Shown here: one piece after another, positions 13,120-26,631 of the stretch
How the letters are laid out: each line of letters starts with the position of its first letter
Position numbering within the stretch: the stretch's first letter is position 1
Assembly: GCA_002172625.1 (NCBI GenBank)
Contig: NHEN01000128.1
Coordinates: 6,943 to 48,282 of the forward strand
Direction of reading: 5' to 3'
Length of the DNA: 41,340 nt
Origin: Verrucomicrobiaceae bacterium TMED86
Lineage (GTDB): Bacteria > Verrucomicrobiota > Verrucomicrobiia > Verrucomicrobiales > Akkermansiaceae
Position numbers and translations under genes: made by a program
The notes under the pieces: model-generated
Databases searched by the model: none
What the model was told of the DNA's origin: nothing
What the model saw: the letters and a program-made list of their open reading frames with translations, nothing else

Positions 13120-14553
13120 ATGATGTTGAAGAAATGGTGTTTGTTGGCTGCTGTGGCGGTAGTGTGGGCGCAGGCTCAGGCGAAATCGTACGTTCTTATC
13201 CTCGTGGATGATCTTGGCTACATGGATATCGGGGCATATAATCCGAAGAGTTTTTACGAAACGCCGAATATCGATGCGTTGGCGAAGTCGGGGGTGAAAT
13301 TCACTGACGGCTATGCGGCCAATCCGGTGTGCTCGCCGACGCGCTTTGGGATTCAGACAGGGCGTTATCCGACACGAAAGGATTGTACGAATTTCTTTAG
13401 CGGGAGACGCGGCGGGAAGTTCGCCTGTGCCCCTTTGCACGATCGCTTGGATCACGACGAAGTGACGATTGCCGAGGCACTGAGGGAACAGGGCTATGCG
13501 ACATTTTTTGCGGGCAAGTGGCATCTTGGACCGACGGAGGAGTTTTGGCCCAAGAAGCATGGCTACGATGTCAATGCGGGTGGCTTTGTGAAAGGCGGAC
13601 CGTATGGCGGGAAGAAGTATTTTTCGCCTTATGGAAATCCGCGCCTGAGTGACGGACCGGATGGCGAGCACTTGCCAGATCGTCTCGCGACCGAGACCTG
13701 TAACTTCATGGAAGCGAACAAAGGAAAGCCTTTCTTCGCGATGTTGTCGTTCTATTCGGTGCATACTCCCTTGATTGGTCGCCCTGACCTGGTGGAGAAG
13801 TATCGTAAGAAAGCCGCGAAGATTTCCGGACAGGAATTCGGTGAGGAGGAACAGGTCTTCGGGAAGAAGCCCCGGAAAGTCCGTATTTTGCAAAAGCATG
13901 CCGTCTACGCCGCGATGGTGGAGGCGATGGACCAAGCCGTCGGTAAGGTGATGAAGAAAGTCACCGAGTTGGGATTGGATGATGAAGTGGTGATTTGTTT
14001 CACCTCGGACAATGGCGGCCTTTCGACCTCGGAAGGCTCACCAACTTCGAACCTTCCGTTGCGTGGAGGCAAGGGATGGATTTATGAAGGAGGAATTCGT
14101 GAGCCCTTCATCGTGAAGTGGCCCGGAGTAACCAAAGCAGGCACCGTGAGCAGCGTGCCCGTCATGAGCACCGACTTCATGCCAACTTTCGTCAACGCTT
14201 CGGGAGGCAAGGTGAAGGCGAAAATCGATGGCGTGGATTTGATGCCACTGCTGAAAGGCGGCGAGCTGAAGCGCAAGGCGCTTTTCTGGCACTATCCGCA
14301 CTATAGTAATCAGGGTGGGTTTCCCTCAGGTGCGGTGAGAATGGGAGACTGGAAGCTCATCGAGCGATACGAAGACGGCCGCGTGCATCTCTACAATCTT
14401 ATGGATGATCCCGGTGAGTTGAAGGATTTGCAGAAGGGGAATGAAGCGCTCGTGAAATCAATGCGCGCGAAATTGCACGCCTGGTACAAGGAAACCGACG
14501 CGAAGTTTCTTCAACCGAAGAAGGGGCAGAAGGAAAAGCCGTGGAGGCCGTAG
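13120..14553 (+). CDS. secreted sulfatase (Cys-type, FGly motif)
   Basis: Signal peptide; VLILVDDLGYMDIG; CSPTRFGIQTGRYP (CxPxR); GKWHLGP; TSDNGG. Confidence 0.93.
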   Translation: MMLKKWCLLAAVAVVWAQAQAKSYVLILVDDLGYMDIGAYNPKSFYETPNIDALAKSGVKFTDGYAANPVCSPTRFGIQTGRYPTRKDCTNFFSGRRGGKFACAPLHDRLDHDEVTIAEALREQGYATFFAGKWHLGPTEEFWPKKHGYDVNAGGFVKGGPYGGKKYFSPYGNPRLSDGPDGEHLPDRLATETCNFMEANKGKPFFAMLSFYSVHTPLIGRPDLVEKYRKKAAKISGQEFGEEEQVFGKKPRKVRILQKHAVYAAMVEAMDQAVGKVMKKVTELGLDDEVVICFTSDNGGLSTSEGSPTSNLPLRGGKGWIYEGGIREPFIVKWPGVTKAGTVSSVPVMSTDFMPTFVNASGGKVKAKIDGVDLMPLLKGGELKRKALFWHYPHYSNQGGFPSGAVRMGDWKLIERYEDGRVHLYNLMDDPGELKDLQKGNEALVKSMRAKLHAWYKETDAKFLQPKKGQKEKPWRP

Positions 14554-15609: not shown

Positions 15610-16929
15610 ATGAGTTCAGTCGCAGATAAAAAGAAAGCCACCCGGGCGGGAAATTATTTCATTTCGAATTACCCTCCCTTTTCGTTTTGGTCGGATGATC
15701 AAAATGCCCAGGTTGAGGCCGCTTACGATCAACCCTCGAAAGAGGGAGTGCCACTGGGTCTCTATCACCACATTCCCTTCTGCCGGAGACGCTGTCATTT
15801 CTGCTACTTTCGCGTTTATACCGATAAGAGTGCGGATGAGATCAAGCACTACCTGGACTCGACGGTGACCGAACTTGAGATGATGGCTCGCAAGCCGCTC
15901 ATCGAGGGACGAAAGCCCAAGTTCATTTATTTTGGTGGAGGGACGCCCTCGTATCTCTCGGCGAAGCAGTTGGGAGAGTTGACTGACCGAATGAAAGCCA
16001 TTCTTCCATGGGACGATGCCCAGGAAGTGGCCTTTGAGTGTGAACCGGGAACCTTGAATCCGGGCAAGCTCGCGGCGATTAAAGATATCGGGGTGACGCG
16101 CTTGAGTTTGGGTATTGAAAACTTTGACGACCACATTCTCGAGATCAATGGTCGGGCGCATCGCTCGAAAGAAGTGGGCCGGGCCTACGAGCGGGCCCAG
16201 GCGGAAGGCTTTGATCAGATCAATATCGATTTGATTTCTGGCATGATCGAGGAGACCGAGGAGAACTGGCAGCGTAACATCGAAAAGACGATCGAGTATG
16301 CGCCGGACAGCGTGACGATTTACCAAATGGAGATCCCGTATAATACGACGATCTACAAGGAGATGAAGGATAACGGAAAACTCGTTGCTCCCGTGGCCGA
16401 TTGGGAAACGAAGCGTCGCTGGGTCAAGGAAGCCTTCGCGGCTCTTGAGAGCGCGGGTTACACGATTAGCTCGGGTTACACTGCAGTGAAGAATCCGGAG
16501 AAGACGAAATTTGAATATCGTGATTCCCTCTGGGGAGGCGCTGACTTGCTCGGATTGGGTGTGGCTTCCTTTTCACATGCGGCTGGAGTTCACTATCAAA
16601 ACCTCACCGAGATTGATGATTATACCAAGGCCATTGAAGCCGGCCAGATGCCGACCAAGCGGAGCTTCCGAACGACGGAAGAGCAGCGCATGATTCGTGA
16701 GTTCATTCTTCAGATGAAATTGGGCAAGGTGGACAGCTCCTACTTCGACCGGAAGTTTGGTGTCGATGTTGTCAATCGCTGGAGTGACGAGCTCGAGCAA
16801 TTGACTGACGAGGGCTTGCTCAATGTGACCGATGGCAAGATTCTCCTCGAGCGCGATGGCTTGTTGTGTGTCGACAATATCTTGCATGACTTCTTCCTGC
16901 CCGAGCATCGCACTGACCGCATTGTCTAG
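15610..16929 (+). CDS. HemN/HemW-like radical SAM protein (coproporphyrinogen III oxidase family)
   Basis: CRRRCHFCYF = CX3CX2C cluster motif preceded by YHHIPF; FIYFGGGTPSYLS; TRLSLGIENFDDHILEINGRAH; INIDLISGM; HemN C-terminal-like domain. Confidence 0.9.
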   Translation: MSSVADKKKATRAGNYFISNYPPFSFWSDDQNAQVEAAYDQPSKEGVPLGLYHHIPFCRRRCHFCYFRVYTDKSADEIKHYLDSTVTELEMMARKPLIEGRKPKFIYFGGGTPSYLSAKQLGELTDRMKAILPWDDAQEVAFECEPGTLNPGKLAAIKDIGVTRLSLGIENFDDHILEINGRAHRSKEVGRAYERAQAEGFDQINIDLISGMIEETEENWQRNIEKTIEYAPDSVTIYQMEIPYNTTIYKEMKDNGKLVAPVADWETKRRWVKEAFAALESAGYTISSGYTAVKNPEKTKFEYRDSLWGGADLLGLGVASFSHAAGVHYQNLTEIDDYTKAIEAGQMPTKRSFRTTEEQRMIREFILQMKLGKVDSSYFDRKFGVDVVNRWSDELEQLTDEGLLNVTDGKILLERDGLLCVDNILHDFFLPEHRTDRIV

Positions 16930-16931
16930 TG

Positions 16932-17459
16932 ATGGATTTCTCGCAAGAGATCACACGATTGCTGGGAGCGTCGTTGTTGAAGGAGGTCGACTTTGTTCCA
17001 GTCGAGCCGGATGATATTGAGGCGCCTTACCGCGACTTGCTGCATCATGGTCGGGATATGACCTCGACTCTGGCGAAGTTTCATGGCGGGAAGATTGCTC
17101 TGAAGGTGTTGAAGACCAGGCGGAATGAAGATAAATATCTACGCGAAGTAATTCTCTATTCAGGCGAGAAGCCCGTGGAGTATGGCTTGATCGAAGTGCA
17201 TCTGAATCATTGCCGGGATGATTTGCGCGGACGAATCCTGGCGGAAACGGAACCGCTCGGGGGCATTTTGAATGATAGCGGGATTGCCTACCAAAGTAAG
17301 CCGGTGGGATTTTTGAAAATCGCGCCGGGTGAATTTTCTCCGGATTTTTTTCCCCCGGCGGGTGGCGAATCTCTTTTTGGCCGTTATAATACCCTGTTTG
17401 ATGAAAACAACCGGGTGATTTCCCGGATTTTAGAAATTCTACCTAGAGAAAAACCATGA
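16932..17459 (+). CDS. chorismate-lyase-like (UbiC/UTRA-fold-like) protein, putative
   Basis: RDLLHHGRDMTSTLAKFHGGKIALKVL...DKYLREVILYSGEKPVEYGLIEVHLNHCRDDLRGRILAETEPLGGILNDSG resembles chorismate lyase-like proteins (LL.H..DMT.TLE.FHG...R.V.L.....VE.G.I...L......IL....PLG.IL). Confidence 0.6.
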   Translation: MDFSQEITRLLGASLLKEVDFVPVEPDDIEAPYRDLLHHGRDMTSTLAKFHGGKIALKVLKTRRNEDKYLREVILYSGEKPVEYGLIEVHLNHCRDDLRGRILAETEPLGGILNDSGIAYQSKPVGFLKIAPGEFSPDFFPPAGGESLFGRYNTLFDENNRVISRILEILPREKP

Positions 17460-18733
17460 TTTCAAAACTGAAAAACGATTGCGATGTTCTTATCATTGGA
17501 GCTGGCCCGGCCGGGTCGACGGCTGCGACGATTCTTTCAGGGGAGAAGGGAAAGAAAGTAATCGTCTTGGAGAAGGGGCATTTTCCGCGCTATCACGTGG
17601 GCGAGTCTTTGATTCCGCATTGTTATGACACGCTGGAGCGAATTGGGATGGTGGATCGTCTCAATGGGGCAGGCTTCCAAAGCAAGCAAAGCGTGCAGTT
17701 TGTGAATCCTGATGGTGAGCTTTCTGCGCCGTTCTATTTTTCCGAACACACCGATCATCCCCGGGCGAAAACCTGGCAGGTGGATCGGGCGACTTTCGAC
17801 ACCATGATGATGGAACGAGCACGCGAGGCGGGAGCCGATGTGCGGGAGGGGATCAAGGTCCTGGATTTCATAGAGGAAGATGGGGTAGTTGTTGGTGTAA
17901 CTGCGGAGGATGAGTCGGGGAAGGTTTTTGAAGTGCGGGCGTCCATGACGATGGATGCGACGGGTCGCGATGCCCTTTTTCAGCGGAAGAAGAAATGGCG
18001 GAAGCGTGATCCCAAGCTTAACAAGATCGCCATTTGGACGAACTACAAAGGAGCAAAGCGTGATCCTGGTGTGGATGAAGGCGCGACTACGGTGGCGTAT
18101 GTGCAGGGGAAAGGGTGGTTTTGGAATATCCCTCTCAAGGATGACATCGTGAGCACCGGGATCGTAGCGGAGAGGGATTACCTCTATCGCGATGGTCGTG
18201 ATCTCCATGCGATTTACCAACGTGAAATCAAGGAGAATAAGTGGGTGGAAGAGCATCTTTCGGAAGGTGAGCAGATCGGCGAGTATTGGGTTACTGGGGA
18301 GTACTCTTATCGTGCCGAAAATTGTGCCGCGGATGGCCTGTTGCTCATTGGTGATGCCTTTGCCTTTCTAGACCCAGTCTTCTCATCGGGGGTTTATTTG
18401 GCGCTGACAACAGGCTCCTTGGGGGCTGATGCTGTGGCTGATGCTCTTGAGGCTAATGATGTGAGTGCGGAAAGATTTTTGGGTTATGGTGAGCGGGTCT
18501 GCAAAGGAATCGAATGGATGCGGAAGTTGGTATACGCCTTCTATGATGAAAATTTCAGTTTCAAGGATGTCGCGATGAAGTACGCTGAAGTACGTCGGGA
18601 TCTGACCGATTGCCTGATCGGTGATTTGATCGACAAGGATTACGGAAAACTCTTCGATCGCGTGAGCGAATTTGCCGAGCTGCCGGAAGATCTTCCACAT
18701 GGGAAAACAGTGGCGGGGTCCTCCATAACTTAA
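17456..18733 (+). CDS. FAD-dependent oxidoreductase, flavin halogenase / geranylgeranyl reductase-like
   Basis: VLIIGAGPAGSTAA (GxGxxG), HVGESLIP, WFWNIP (WxWxIP), GDAFAFLDPVFSSGVYLAL. Start overlaps the upstream stop by 4 bp (ATGA). Confidence 0.88.
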   Translation: MISKLKNDCDVLIIGAGPAGSTAATILSGEKGKKVIVLEKGHFPRYHVGESLIPHCYDTLERIGMVDRLNGAGFQSKQSVQFVNPDGELSAPFYFSEHTDHPRAKTWQVDRATFDTMMMERAREAGADVREGIKVLDFIEEDGVVVGVTAEDESGKVFEVRASMTMDATGRDALFQRKKKWRKRDPKLNKIAIWTNYKGAKRDPGVDEGATTVAYVQGKGWFWNIPLKDDIVSTGIVAERDYLYRDGRDLHAIYQREIKENKWVEEHLSEGEQIGEYWVTGEYSYRAENCAADGLLLIGDAFAFLDPVFSSGVYLALTTGSLGADAVADALEANDVSAERFLGYGERVCKGIEWMRKLVYAFYDENFSFKDVAMKYAEVRRDLTDCLIGDLIDKDYGKLFDRVSEFAELPEDLPHGKTVAGSSIT

Positions 18734-18734
18734 G

Positions 18735-20006
18735 GTGAAAATCACGATCCTTACTGCCGGCACGGGGAGCTACTATTGCGGAGCCTGCATGCGGGACAAT
18801 GCGCTGGTGAAGGCTTTGAGAGCTCTTGGGCATGATGCTCATCTCGTGCCGATGTATCTGCCAATGCAGCTCGATGAAGAGCGGGCGGATGCCGAGACAC
18901 CCGTCTTTTTTGGAGGGATCAATGTATGGCTTCAGGAGAAGTATCGTATTTTTCGGAAGTTGCCGCGTTGGGTTGATCGTTTATTCAATGGGCGCGGGTT
19001 GCTTCGGGCCGTGGCGAAGAGGAGCCACATGACCTCGGCCAAGGAGCAAGGCGAGATGACTTATCTCATGCTGAATTTTGAGGAGAGCCATTTGGGCAAG
19101 GAACTCGATAAACTGGTGGAGTGGTTAGAGCGCGACGGGAAGCCTGACGTGGTTGTTCTTTCGAATGCCCTGCTGGGAGGATTGACTCGCGAACTGAAGC
19201 AGCGTTTAGGGGTGCCGGTGGTGTGCACTTTTCAGGGGGAAGATTCCTTTCTCGACGGTCTGCCTGAGCCGTGGAAGACAAAATGTTGGGATGAGATGGG
19301 GCTCCGGACGAAGGAGTGTGATGCCTTGATTTCTCCGAGTCAATTTTTCGCCAGTCTGATGGAGGAAAGACTCGGAGTGTCATCTGAAGTGGTTCCGAAT
19401 GGCATCGATCTCGAAGGATACGAAGTGGGATCGGGAGAGGGGAAGATTGGCTACTTTGCGCGGATGTATCACTACAAAGGCTTGGGCTTGTTAGTGGACG
19501 CCTTTATCCATTTGCGAACGACGTTGGGTGATAAAAAGACGAAGCTCGCGGTCGCCGGAACGATGGGCGGGGGTGACGAAGAGTATGTTGCGGGCTTGAA
19601 GAAGAAACTCGGGGAGTATGGTCTGGGGGACGAAGTGTCGTGGCATGCCAACGTGAGCAGGGAAGAGAAGGCGGCTTTTCTGGAAAGTCTCTCGGTTTTC
19701 TCGGTTCCGGCGATTTATCCGGAGGGATTCGGGCTTTATTTGGTTGAGGCAATGGCTTGTGGCGTCCCGGTGGTCATGCCGAGGGCTGCGGCTTTTACCG
19801 AGATTGTCGAGCCTGCGGAGTGTGGGATTTTGGTGGATCCCGGGAGTGCTGAAGCGCTAGCCAAGGGTTTGCAAACAATTTTGGAGGACTCGGGCTTGCG
19901 GAAATCGATGGGAGAAAAGGGTCGGATCGCGGTCGAGGATCGTTATCATGTCGGGGCAATGGCGAAGAGCTTTGAACAAATTTTGCGAAAGGTGGTGGAG
20001 AAATGA
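18735..20006 (+). CDS. family 4-type glycosyltransferase (GTG start)
   Basis: VVPNGIDLEGYEV, YFARMYHYKGLGLLVDAF, SVPAIYPEGFGLYLVEAMACGVPVVMPRAAAFTEIVE (GT-B EX7E region). Confidence 0.9.
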   Translation: MKITILTAGTGSYYCGACMRDNALVKALRALGHDAHLVPMYLPMQLDEERADAETPVFFGGINVWLQEKYRIFRKLPRWVDRLFNGRGLLRAVAKRSHMTSAKEQGEMTYLMLNFEESHLGKELDKLVEWLERDGKPDVVVLSNALLGGLTRELKQRLGVPVVCTFQGEDSFLDGLPEPWKTKCWDEMGLRTKECDALISPSQFFASLMEERLGVSSEVVPNGIDLEGYEVGSGEGKIGYFARMYHYKGLGLLVDAFIHLRTTLGDKKTKLAVAGTMGGGDEEYVAGLKKKLGEYGLGDEVSWHANVSREEKAAFLESLSVFSVPAIYPEGFGLYLVEAMACGVPVVMPRAAAFTEIVEPAECGILVDPGSAEALAKGLQTILEDSGLRKSMGEKGRIAVEDRYHVGAMAKSFEQILRKVVEK

Positions 20007-20395
20007 GCACATTTGAATGGTCTCGTCCGGTGGAGTTCTATGAAACTGACTTGGCGGGGATTACCCACTTTTCGAATTTCTATCGCTGGATGGAATCGGC
20101 CGAGCATGCCTTTCTGCGCGAGCGGGGAATCGAGTTGCACGATGGTGAGATCGGATGGCCGCGTGTGAATGCTTCCGCGGATTTTAAGAAGCCAATTAAG
20201 TTTGGTGACTTGGTGAGAGTGCGGGTTTCCGTCTCCGAAGTGCGGACTCGTTCGGTGTGTTACTCCTTTGAGTTTTTCGTGAATGACGACGACACCGTTC
20301 GCGCGACCGGTGAGATGATTTCGGTTTGCGTGAAGCTGGCGACGATGAAGGCGATGGAGATTCCCGAGGACATCCGGGCTAGGTTGGAACAATAG
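20003..20395 (+). CDS. acyl-CoA thioesterase, hotdog fold (4HBT/YbgC-like)
   Basis: RPVEFYETDLAGITHFSNFYRWMESAEHAFLRERG; overlaps the GT stop (ATGA). Confidence 0.88.
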   Translation: MSTFEWSRPVEFYETDLAGITHFSNFYRWMESAEHAFLRERGIELHDGEIGWPRVNASADFKKPIKFGDLVRVRVSVSEVRTRSVCYSFEFFVNDDDTVRATGEMISVCVKLATMKAMEIPEDIRARLEQ

Positions 20396-20443: not shown

Positions 20444-20974
20444 ATGACTAAAAAGAATTCTATGAATTGGGTAACTTTTGCGCTGATGACGGTGGCCTTC
20501 TGGGGGCTCTATGGAGTGTTCCTTCACAAAGGAGCAATGGGAATGGCTGATCCGCAATTTGGTCGGTACAAAGCGTTTTTGGTAGTGGGGATCGCCTATT
20601 TCCTGGTGGCGGTGTTGGCTCCTTTGATTCTTTTGAAAATGTCAGGGTCGGATCTCAAGTTGCCTGGCCCGGGCTTCAAGTGGTCCTTGATTGCCGGAGT
20701 GGTAGGAGCGCTCGGAGCGCTTGGGGTTCTGTTGGCTTTTGGGAAAGGCGGTCCACCTTCCGCAGTGATGTCGATTATCTTTGCGGGTGCTCCTGTGGTG
20801 AATGCTGTGGTTGCTTTGAGTATGCATCCACCGGCAGGGGGATTGGGAGCCTTGCGTTGGCAGTTCTTTGCTGGGATTGTTTTGGCCGCCGTGGGTGGCT
20901 GCCTGGTCACCATGTATAAAGACCCCAAGCCAGCCAAGGCAGCGGAAGAAAGCGCTACGGTTGCGAAACCGTAA
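20444..20974 (+). CDS. half-size DMT/EamA-like integral membrane protein
   Basis: About 5 hydrophobic helices over 176 aa; EamA-like ending 'FAGIVLAAVGGCLVTMYKD'. Confidence 0.6.
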   Translation: MTKKNSMNWVTFALMTVAFWGLYGVFLHKGAMGMADPQFGRYKAFLVVGIAYFLVAVLAPLILLKMSGSDLKLPGPGFKWSLIAGVVGALGALGVLLAFGKGGPPSAVMSIIFAGAPVVNAVVALSMHPPAGGLGALRWQFFAGIVLAAVGGCLVTMYKDPKPAKAAEESATVAKP

Positions 20975-23347: not shown

Positions 23348-24781
23348 CTAGCGCCTGTTTTTTGGGAATTTGGGGCTACCACCACCGTAGGGCTGGGCAT
23401 CGAAGTTGAAGGCCGGACCGCCGTTCCGGGGGTCCTCGGACTTTGAAAGTTCCGTAGCGAGGAGGGCTTGGTATTTCTTGAGAAGTTCGGGTTTTTTGGC
23501 CGCAATATTGTTGAGCTGATCGGGATCGGTTTTGAGATCGAACAACTCGTCGGCCGGGCGCTTGGCGAAAGAAAGATCGTAGAAGCGTTGATATTCGGGA
23601 GAGTGGTCTTTTTTGTCGATGAGGTAGGATTTGGTCGGCCCGTTGTCGGTGTCGCCATACCAGGCGTCTTTGATCGCGGCCTTCTGCCAGTTGGGAGTGC
23701 CGTTGGGCCAGCGGCCGGTTTCGTAATTGCGGATGTAGAGATACTGATGGTCGCGATAGGCGCGGGAGGGATAGCCGCCCATGTCGGGGGCCTCCTGACT
23801 CGGGACGTGGCGTTCTTTTCCGGTGAGAATGAAGGGGCGGAGTTCCATGTCGCCTCCTCCGCTGAGCGCGGGGAGGAGGTTTTTTCCGGTCATGTCTTTT
23901 GGCACGGGCACTCCGGCAGCGGCGAGGAAGGTGGGAGCGAGGTCGGTGAGGGAGGCGAAGTTTTGGAAGACCTTGCCGGGTTTAATTTTTTCGCCCCAGC
24001 GGATGGCGAGAGGAACGCGCGTGCCACTGTCGTAGAGGTTTGACTTGCAGCGTGGAAAGGGCATGCCGTGATCGCCGGTGATGACGATGATGGTGTTGTC
24101 GAGTTCACCGATCTTTTCGAGTTGGGCGATGGCCTTTGCGACGTCGGAATCGAAGCGTTGCACCTCGAAATAGTAATCCGCCACATCGCTACGGACTTCC
24201 TCGTCATTGGGGAAGTGTGGGAAGACCTTGACCTTCGAGATGTCCATGCCGGACTGTTTTCCAGATTCTTTTTTGTAGCCGCGATGCGGGTCGCTGGCAC
24301 CGAGCCAGAAGCAGAAGGGTGTGTCTTTGTTGGGTCGCTCGGCGAGGAAAGCCGGGAAGCCCTTTTTGTAAACCTTTCCCGCGGGGTGGTCCTCGAGGAA
24401 TTTTCCCTTCAGTTTTCCGGGACCGAACGACTTGCGCCATGAACCGGTGTGATAACCGGATTTTTTGAGAAGACGGGCGTAGGTTTCCACCGATTGTGGA
24501 AGGGTCCCGTAGAGATTGGCTCCGGCTCCGAGTCGCCAGTGCCATTGTCCCGTCATCAGAGAATTTCGGCAGGGAGTGCAGGAAGGTGAGGAAACGTAGG
24601 CGTTGTGGAAGAGGGCTCCTTCCCTCGCGATGCGATCAAAGCCCGGCGTCTTTACCACGGTGTCGTTGGCGTAGATCGAGGCATGTGGCCACCCCCAGTC
24701 GTCGGCGATGCAGAAGAGGATGTTAGGCCGCTTGTCAGCGTGGCAGGTGAGGGTGAGGAGAAGGAAGGTGAAAAGCTTCAT
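23348..24781 (-). CDS. secreted sulfatase (heparan N-sulfatase-like)
   Basis: Signal peptide; NILFCIADDWGW; SCTPCRNSLMTGQW (CxPxR); VITGDHGMPFPRCK. Confidence 0.92.
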   Translation of the reverse strand: MKLFTFLLLTLTCHADKRPNILFCIADDWGWPHASIYANDTVVKTPGFDRIAREGALFHNAYVSSPSCTPCRNSLMTGQWHWRLGAGANLYGTLPQSVETYARLLKKSGYHTGSWRKSFGPGKLKGKFLEDHPAGKVYKKGFPAFLAERPNKDTPFCFWLGASDPHRGYKKESGKQSGMDISKVKVFPHFPNDEEVRSDVADYYFEVQRFDSDVAKAIAQLEKIGELDNTIIVITGDHGMPFPRCKSNLYDSGTRVPLAIRWGEKIKPGKVFQNFASLTDLAPTFLAAAGVPVPKDMTGKNLLPALSGGGDMELRPFILTGKERHVPSQEAPDMGGYPSRAYRDHQYLYIRNYETGRWPNGTPNWQKAAIKDAWYGDTDNGPTKSYLIDKKDHSPEYQRFYDLSFAKRPADELFDLKTDPDQLNNIAAKKPELLKKYQALLATELSKSEDPRNGGPAFNFDAQPYGGGSPKFPKNRR

Positions 24782-25442: not shown

Positions 25443-26495
25443 TTACGACACCTCAACCGCTTTGTCTCCCGGATCGGTAAGCGTTCCGATCTCTGCCACA
25501 ATGCTGGCTCCGTTGTTGAGGAGGATTTCCTGGGCGTCGTGAAGGTCGTCTGGTTTGACGGCGAGGAGGAGGCCGCCAGAAGTTTGGGCATCGGCGAGGA
25601 GGATTTGTGTTTCTTCCGAAACGTCGTCGGCGAAGGTAGTGAATTCCTTGGCGAGTTCGAGGTTCTTGCGGCTGCCACCGGGGACGTGGCCTTCCTTGAT
25701 GAATTCCATGACAGCGGGATCGATGGCCGGAACAGCCGAAGAATCAATGCGGGCAGTCACGCCGGATTCGCGGCAAAGGTGGCTCAGGTGTCCGAGAAGC
25801 CCAAAGCCGGTCACGTCGGTACCGGCGCGCGTCATTCCTGCGGTGGCGAGGGCGGAGCCGGGGGTGTTGAGTTCGGCCATTTGCTTGGAGACTTTTGCTT
25901 CCAGCTCTGCTGAGGCGAGACCTTTGCGGATCGCGGTGGAAATGATTCCGGTCCCGAGCGGTTTGGTGAGGAGGAGGTGATCGCCGGGCTTGCCGCCGGT
26001 GTTGGCGATGGTGCGGTGAGGGTTGACCAAGCCGGTCACGGAAAGTCCGTAGAGCGGTTGGGGATTGAGCACAGTGTGGCCACCGGCGAGGGCGCATTCA
26101 GCTTCGGCCACCTTGTCGGCTCCCCCGAGGAGGATTTGGTTGATGACGTCGAGAGAGAGTTCATCGGTGGGGACGGCCACGATGTTCATCGCGGTGATCG
26201 GCTTGCCTCCCATGGCGTAGACGTCGGAGAGGGAGTTGGCGGCCGCGATTTGTCCGAAGAGGTAGGGATCATCGACGACCGGCGTGAAGAAATCGAGGGT
26301 TTGCACAATCGCGAGCTCTTCCGAGATTTTATAAACGGCGGCGTCGTCCGAGCTGGCGGAACCGATAAGGAGATTGGGGTCGGAGATATTGGTGATACCA
26401 CGCAGGACCTGCGTGAGTTCGGCTTGGCCGAGCTTGGAGGCTCATCCTCCGCAGGAGGATAATTCTGTCAGGCGTTTGATGTCTTCACGGCTCAT
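25443..26495 (-). CDS. selD: selenide, water dikinase, selenocysteine-containing (TGA = Sec at codon 18)
   Basis: Reading through TGA (complement of 26442-26444) joins [105 protein letters not shown] into one canonical SelD of 350 aa. Confidence 0.93.
26416..26434 (-). promoter_or_regulatory. candidate bacterial SECIS apical hairpin downstream of the selD UGA
   Basis: mRNA AGCUCGGC-CAA-GCCGAACU: 5-bp perfect stem extended by 2 bp past a C-A mismatch, starting 7 nt after the UGA. Confidence 0.5.
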
Positions 26496-26631
26496 GGGTG
26501 GAGGATAGACCACCTTTGGGATTTGAGAACCCCATAAGGTGAAAATGTTACAGAATGTTTTTCGATTTTCCTGATGTTTTTTCGAATCGATTTGAAACGG
26601 GTCTTTTAAGCAGCGGGCACAGGACAATATT

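Follow-up and report, generated by a model that had tools for sequence, protein, structure and literature searches.

What do five closely coupled genes in the genome of Verrucomicrobiaceae bacterium TMED86 make together, when they encode, in order, a HemN-like radical S-adenosylmethionine (SAM) protein (A), a chorismate-lyase-like protein (B), a halogenase-like flavoprotein (C), a GT4 glycosyltransferase (D) and a hotdog thioesterase (E)? The genes lie in a 41,340-nt stretch of contig NHEN01000128.1 that was analysed as a whole and is here called the window. An earlier reading of the same DNA, the original prediction, described them as an operon between unrelated genes and as a candidate undescribed biosynthetic pathway. 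The present assessment indicates that they are probably part of an undescribed Verrucomicrobiota pathway leading to a small, hydroxybenzoate-derived, glycosylated aromatic compound.

The idea of a common pathway is supported first by co-occurrence. A total of 286 genomes of the class were searched with A, B and D, as well as with M, an EhpF-like adenylating enzyme, and L, an aldehyde dehydrogenase, both of which are conserved companions of the block. A was present in 57 genomes, B, M and L in 56 each, and D in 69; these counts exclude a 44 % paralog of A and, from the 57 matches that were returned for B, a weak one (5e-4). Of the 57 genomes with at least one of A, B, M and L, 55 have all five genes; of the other two, one (89 % complete) lacks M and L, and the other yielded no B. 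The 56 genomes that carry M are the same ones that carry L. Since M is found no farther than 20 kb from A in 11 of these, and at a greater distance or on another contig in the other 45, linkage alone cannot explain the co-occurrence. The corresponding Fisher p-value (~1e-59) is inflated by shared ancestry and is not to be taken literally; the pattern, however, recurs inside families, and in genus g3 two genomes have the complete set of five while a third, 98 % complete, has none. Orthologs of C (at least 50 % identity) were found in all ten A-bearing genomes that were checked, whereas two same-family genomes lacking A carry only C-like paralogs of 32–35 % identity. Overall, the gene set is found in ~20 % of the class genomes searched, spread over 40 genera and 21 families and over lineages that include marine, freshwater and soil bacteria, and A occurs in five further genomes elsewhere in the phylum (49–62 % identity). 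Scattered homologues with no conserved co-occurrence, which the original prediction had named as the outcome that would speak against it, are therefore not what is seen, and the notion of a candidate biosynthetic pathway is strengthened. A search of the open-licence literature, with subscription journals outside its scope, turned up no description of the gene set. The enzyme families are known but their combination is undescribed, and the pathway is one that proceeds from an aromatic acid.

The arrangement of the genes is likewise conserved. Forty other neighbourhoods were extracted around B from genomes of the class, and their open reading frames (ORFs) were clustered by conservation. Counting these and the window, A adjoins B in 29, B adjoins C in 24, C adjoins D in 20, D adjoins E in 16, E adjoins G in 10 and G adjoins F in nine, and the recurrence of the A-B, B-C, C-D and D-E adjacencies means that the block is not a chance arrangement. 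Many loci carry the collinear order N-M-L-K-J-A-B-C-D-E-G-F-H-I (products in the table below), and the best 80 further loci from a contig scan have the same order; these belong mostly to Akkermansiaceae, Roseibacillus, Opitutaceae and Chthoniobacter-like metagenome-assembled genomes and isolates, with Verrucomicrobiota titles predominating and a few titled otherwise, such that occurrence in other phyla is conceivable. Genes A to E are thus a fragment of a set of ~14 genes, whose partner pair M and L is co-retained, often at another locus. In the window's genus the block consists of A-B-C-D-E-G, and the remainder of the extended set, which was not seen beside it there, has been lost or moved; in the window's genome, M and L stand side by side on another contig (C15). 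Hence, the coupling of the five genes stands as originally described, but the boundary had been drawn too narrowly, leaving out G, the larger set and the M-L pair elsewhere. Nor are the flanks unrelated, as had been claimed, because the next gene, G, adjoins E in relatives as well and belongs to the conserved block, and there are related genes at other places in the genome. In five genomes, at loci L035 (7054-9177), L037, L040, L042 and L057, a gene for a large protein resembling a right-handed beta-helix protein is inserted between A and B or beside B.

Given its resemblance to HemN, gene A might be a heme gene, either HemN (coproporphyrinogen dehydrogenase) or HemW (heme chaperone), that happens to sit among unrelated neighbours. 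The best NCBIfam match of A is indeed TIGR00538, over its full length; its structure model (predicted local distance difference test score, pLDDT, 86) has the full HemN fold, the best fold match, with a template-modelling (TM) score of 0.80 to 1olt; and neither another HemN nor HemF was found in the window's genome. However, A scores 198 bits against a TIGR00538 cut-off of 325, and its orthologs score 165–206 bits, as compared with 567–604 for the true HemN proteins encoded in some of the same genomes. True HemN coexists with A in four genomes, HemF is present in three A-bearing genomes, and the window's genome encodes a second, HemW-like protein, such that A is not the sole HemN/HemW, the circumstance in which the original prediction was to be abandoned. 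The coproporphyrin-dependent (HemQ) route to heme needs no HemN. Because HemQ was found in the sampled A-bearing genomes that lack HemN and HemF, the window's included, those bacteria use that route, and heme synthesis there does not depend upon A. Furthermore, two genomes of the same family (G110 and G147) lack A as well as HemN and HemF and yet keep HemQ. Conservation of the block without heme genes, which the original prediction had looked for, holds in the relatives. Score, coexistence with true HemN and the presence of HemQ rule out a heme role for A, and the reading in which A is HemN or HemW beside unrelated genes is most improbable.

Besides HemN, A has a sequence relative in the PDB in the class C methylase NocN (E 8e-34). 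A has the cluster motif CX3CX2C at C58-C62-C65, its three cysteines being identical to those of NocN and invariant in 27 orthologs, and among the residues with which NocN contacts two SAM molecules (Y34, Y96, R153, D196 and S225; PMC12871812), the first four are identical in A (Y52, Y107, R164 and D207) and the fifth is similar (T236), each of the five being likewise invariant in the 27 orthologs. By its cluster motif and two-SAM residues, A would be a radical SAM methylase of class C. Glu170 of A is also invariant and occupies a position at which HemN, HemW and NocN have Gln. Since sp2 carbons are the targets of class C enzymes, and since one of these enzymes, CoeI, methylates an anthraquinone (PMC9714029), an aromatic substrate for A is plausible by analogy; a HemN-type decarboxylation is still conceivable as its reaction. 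At loci L204 (8360-13089) and L205 (8647-13273), a relative of A with 43 % identity, A', accompanies a C-like halogenase/flavoprotein, and the pair adjoins a 656-aa protein resembling a B12-binding radical SAM enzyme. At the position of Glu170, A' has the usual Gln, and the pair is possibly a sister pathway.

For protein B, family models gave no Pfam or NCBIfam match with any of four B sequences (three of them searched at E values up to 1), and a sub-threshold DUF98 match was the single result of a PDB profile search. Its chorismate-lyase label is given because of its fold and catalytic residues. Structure prediction followed by Foldseek, as the original prediction had proposed, gave an AlphaFold model (pLDDT 92) with a predicted chorismate-lyase fold, the top match being AF1396 (DUF98; E 4e-7, TM up to 0.73), together with E. 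coli chorismate lyase bound to its product (1fw9; E 4e-5) and, more weakly, UTRA domains. In a profile-based comparison, B matched E. coli UbiC (E 5e-5), with the REV/REI, PLG and GR motifs aligned. Arg76 and Glu155 of UbiC (E. coli numbering), which we take to be its catalytic residues, correspond to Arg71 and Glu168 of B, and both are identical in 35 of 35 orthologs; Arg71 falls inside the computed UbiC alignment, while Glu168 was matched by hand at a C-terminal E-(L/I)-x-L-P motif just past its end. UTRA domains are not expected to keep equivalents of these two residues. With B so assigned, and with the Pfam models listed in the table for A, C, D and E all exceeding their gathering scores, the family labels of the original prediction hold, although no NCBIfam equivalog was above its cut-off for any of A to E.

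For C, the top PDB relatives are the halogenases 8zop, 5buk and PltA. Its WFWxIP and FLDPVFSSG motifs, Lys77 and the glycines of the flavin adenine dinucleotide (FAD) site are conserved in all 28 aligned orthologs, and Lys77 aligns with a PltA lysine that is presumably the catalytic one. By the motifs of flavin halogenases (GxGxxG, WxWxIP, FxxPxxSxG and the chamber lysine), C is a putative member of that group that likely halogenates, with hydroxylation being the alternative.

The remaining enzymes suggest activation and reduction of an aromatic acid. The top PDB match of M is EhpF, an adenylating enzyme of a phenazine pathway (E 3e-48), L has no PDB match at 1e-10, and F is PaaK-like. EhpF-O has been placed after phenazine dicarboxylate formation (PMC3175449), and the grixazone pathway turns 3-amino-4-hydroxybenzoate into its aldehyde by adenylation with GriC and reduction with GriD (PMC10179220). 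The identical distributions of M and L fit a GriC/GriD-type pair, and these genes, adjacent in the window's genome, may well encode an EhpF-like enzyme and its partner aldehyde dehydrogenase. Starting from the observed gene set, its conservation and co-occurrence, and the folds and catalytic motifs, a scheme can be proposed in which every reaction, the reaction order and the product are read from enzyme families. B would convert chorismate to 4-hydroxybenzoate and pyruvate; A, with two SAM bound, would perform radical one-carbon chemistry (C-methylation or related) on an aromatic intermediate; and C would halogenate or hydroxylate/oxidize the ring. F may convert an acid to its coenzyme A (CoA) thioester, and E would hydrolyse a thioester. 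M would adenylate the aromatic acid and L reduce it to the aldehyde, much as GriC and GriD do with aminohydroxybenzoate, after which K would perhaps turn the aldehyde into an alcohol. D would add a sugar, and G, H and I may move the product across membranes.

Between the aromatic and the lipid-linked metabolite that the original prediction had allowed, an aromatic product derived from 4-hydroxybenzoate is favoured; a lipid or polyketide is disfavoured, as the protein clusters common to at least five neighbourhoods contain no ketosynthase and no carrier protein. An aryl polyene, flexirubin or dialkylresorcinol cluster was rejected because neither a ketosynthase nor an acyl carrier protein is among the conserved neighbours. 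A more specific proposal, put forward tentatively at slightly less than even confidence, is that of an aromatic metabolite or cofactor, widespread in Verrucomicrobiota, that is made from chorismate by way of the divergent lyase and a new HemN-like subfamily (invariant Glu for Gln) that reacts on a phenolic substrate.

Some of these families would be equally at home in degradation. PaaK, 4HBT, iron alcohol dehydrogenase and SSF proteins are frequent in catabolic pathways, and the PaaK-like ligase, 4HBT thioesterase, aldehyde and alcohol dehydrogenases and sodium/solute importer might form an aromatic catabolism module that takes up and converts aromatic acids. However, B has the catalytic residues of a chorismate lyase, M is EhpF-like and so of a biosynthetic family, the GT4 and halogenase-like genes are ill-suited to degradation, and there are no ring-cleavage genes among the conserved neighbours. 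A catabolic role is therefore very unlikely.

Several observations weigh against a pathway to a small halogenated or hydroxylated, glycosylated hydroxybenzoate derivative. The PDB flavoprotein 3nix, a non-halogenase, scores nearly as high for C as the halogenases do, and the motifs of C are also present in related non-halogenating flavoproteins; the NCBIfam models QhpG and LodB match C more weakly. B belongs to no Pfam family, and its fold is common to UTRA effector-binding domains. A is found without a detectable B in loci L143 and L149. Lastly, for a secondary metabolite it is unusual that the genes are dispersed and yet strictly co-retained, a pattern that is also compatible with a cofactor or a cell-envelope component. 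As to the two loci without B, both titled Acidobacteria, A is accompanied by F in L143 (6147-8743 onward) and L149 (2428-3855 onward), and also by C in L143; they are either a version of the set that lacks the lyase or bins with wrong labels. As to the type of product, the set might make a cofactor, a quinone-like redox carrier or a membrane/cell-envelope component, the aromatic head group of which is glycosylated and moved by a LolDE-like transporter. Genes that are dispersed and yet almost perfectly co-retained over 21 families behave more like core metabolism than like a mobile biosynthetic cluster. In addition, H has a match to LolD, I is a permease of the FtsX type, and J is a propeller protein of the BamB/PQQ type. 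On the other hand, the conserved neighbours include no UbiA-type prenyltransferase, ketosynthase or carrier protein, C is similar to the halogenases of natural-product pathways, and H and I are absent from many loci, making this alternative rather unlikely.

The preferred reading thus remains a pathway to a small, glycosylated aromatic compound derived from hydroxybenzoate. The all-or-none profile of its genes gives a precise prediction, namely ~eight core genes, a start from 4-hydroxybenzoate, and a reduced and glycosylated product. With no core polyketide or peptide synthase among the conserved neighbours, the set is probably missed by standard genome-mining rules. If the reading is right, HemN-like radical SAM chemistry would gain a new reaction or substrate, and a phylum from which few natural products are known would have a metabolite assigned to it.

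Within the window, an ORF check agrees with the original prediction on the five plus-strand genes, their coordinates and their junctions. The B/C and D/E junctions are ATGA overlaps, the C/D junction is TAAGGTG with a 1-bp gap, and at the A/B junction (TAGTGATG) an alternative GTG start of B at 16929 overlaps the stop codon of A by 1 bp. The alignment of Met1 and the next residues across all 27 orthologs supports 15610 as the start of A, and a longer GTG frame from 15571 is not needed. D has a conserved N-terminal segment, GxGxYxCGxCxRDN, and E has a conserved Asp16 and, as its top PDB match, a protein annotated as 4-hydroxybenzoyl-CoA thioesterase. The G protein has no Pfam or NCBIfam match. 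At a distance, the block is flanked by sulfatase-like genes, which are common in Verrucomicrobia (13120-14553, plus strand; 23348-24781, minus strand). Farther along, the frame of SelD (selenide, water dikinase; 25443-26500, minus strand) extends beyond the upstream end of the listed ORF, across an in-frame TGA, reading ELSSCGG, the TGA codon and then ASKLGQ, and SelD looks like a selenocysteine-containing protein.

Table. Genes of the block in the window, followed by the other members of the extended set
Gene	Position	Strand	Length (aa)	Product or family
A	15610..16929	+	439	HemN-like radical SAM protein, separate subfamily; Radical_SAM and HemN_C (Pfam)
B	16932..17459	+	175	Divergent chorismate-lyase-like protein; length from ATG at 16932
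C	17456..18733	+	425	Flavin-dependent halogenase/monooxygenase-like; Trp_halogenase (Pfam)
D	18735..20006	+	423	GT4 glycosyltransferase, GTG start; Glycos_transf_1 (Pfam)
E	20003..20395	+	130	Hotdog thioesterase, 4HBT/YbgC group; 4HBT_2 (Pfam)
G	20444..20974	+	176	Small hydrophobic membrane protein, EamA-like by our reading
N				Sodium/solute symporter (SSF)
M				AMP-binding, EhpF-like adenylating enzyme
L				Aldehyde dehydrogenase
K				Iron alcohol dehydrogenase (Fe-ADH)
J				BamB/PQQ-type propeller protein
F				PaaK-like ligase
H				LolD-like ATPase
I				FtsX-type permease

Several parts of the set can be compared with known systems. A is like NosN/NocN and CoeI in its HemN fold, CX3CX2C motif and two-SAM residues (PMC12871812, PMC9714029), but differs from NocN in having a HemN-type N-terminal segment, NYPPFSFW, that NocN lacks, as well as the invariant Glu170 in place of Gln. 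B is like UbiC and DUF98 proteins in fold, in its equivalents of Arg76 and Glu155 and in its PLG and GR motifs, but it is below every Pfam threshold, has ~15 % identity to solved relatives and lies in no ubiA or ubiquinone context. Flavin-dependent halogenases of the PltA/CmlS type are the top PDB relatives of C and have the WxWxIP, FxxPxxSxG and Lys motifs in common with it; C is, however, without the long C-terminal part of CmlS and scores 192 bits against an NCBIfam CmlS cut-off of 900. As in GriC/GriD of grixazone and EhpF of D-alanylgriseoluteic acid, a phenazine, M and L combine an adenosine monophosphate (AMP)-forming activator of aromatic acids with an aldehyde dehydrogenase, and L adjoins M in many genomes. 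In contrast to those systems, the M-L pair has no phenazine or aminohydroxybenzoate genes among the conserved neighbours and is tied, instead, to genes for a chorismate-lyase-like protein and a HemN-like radical SAM protein.

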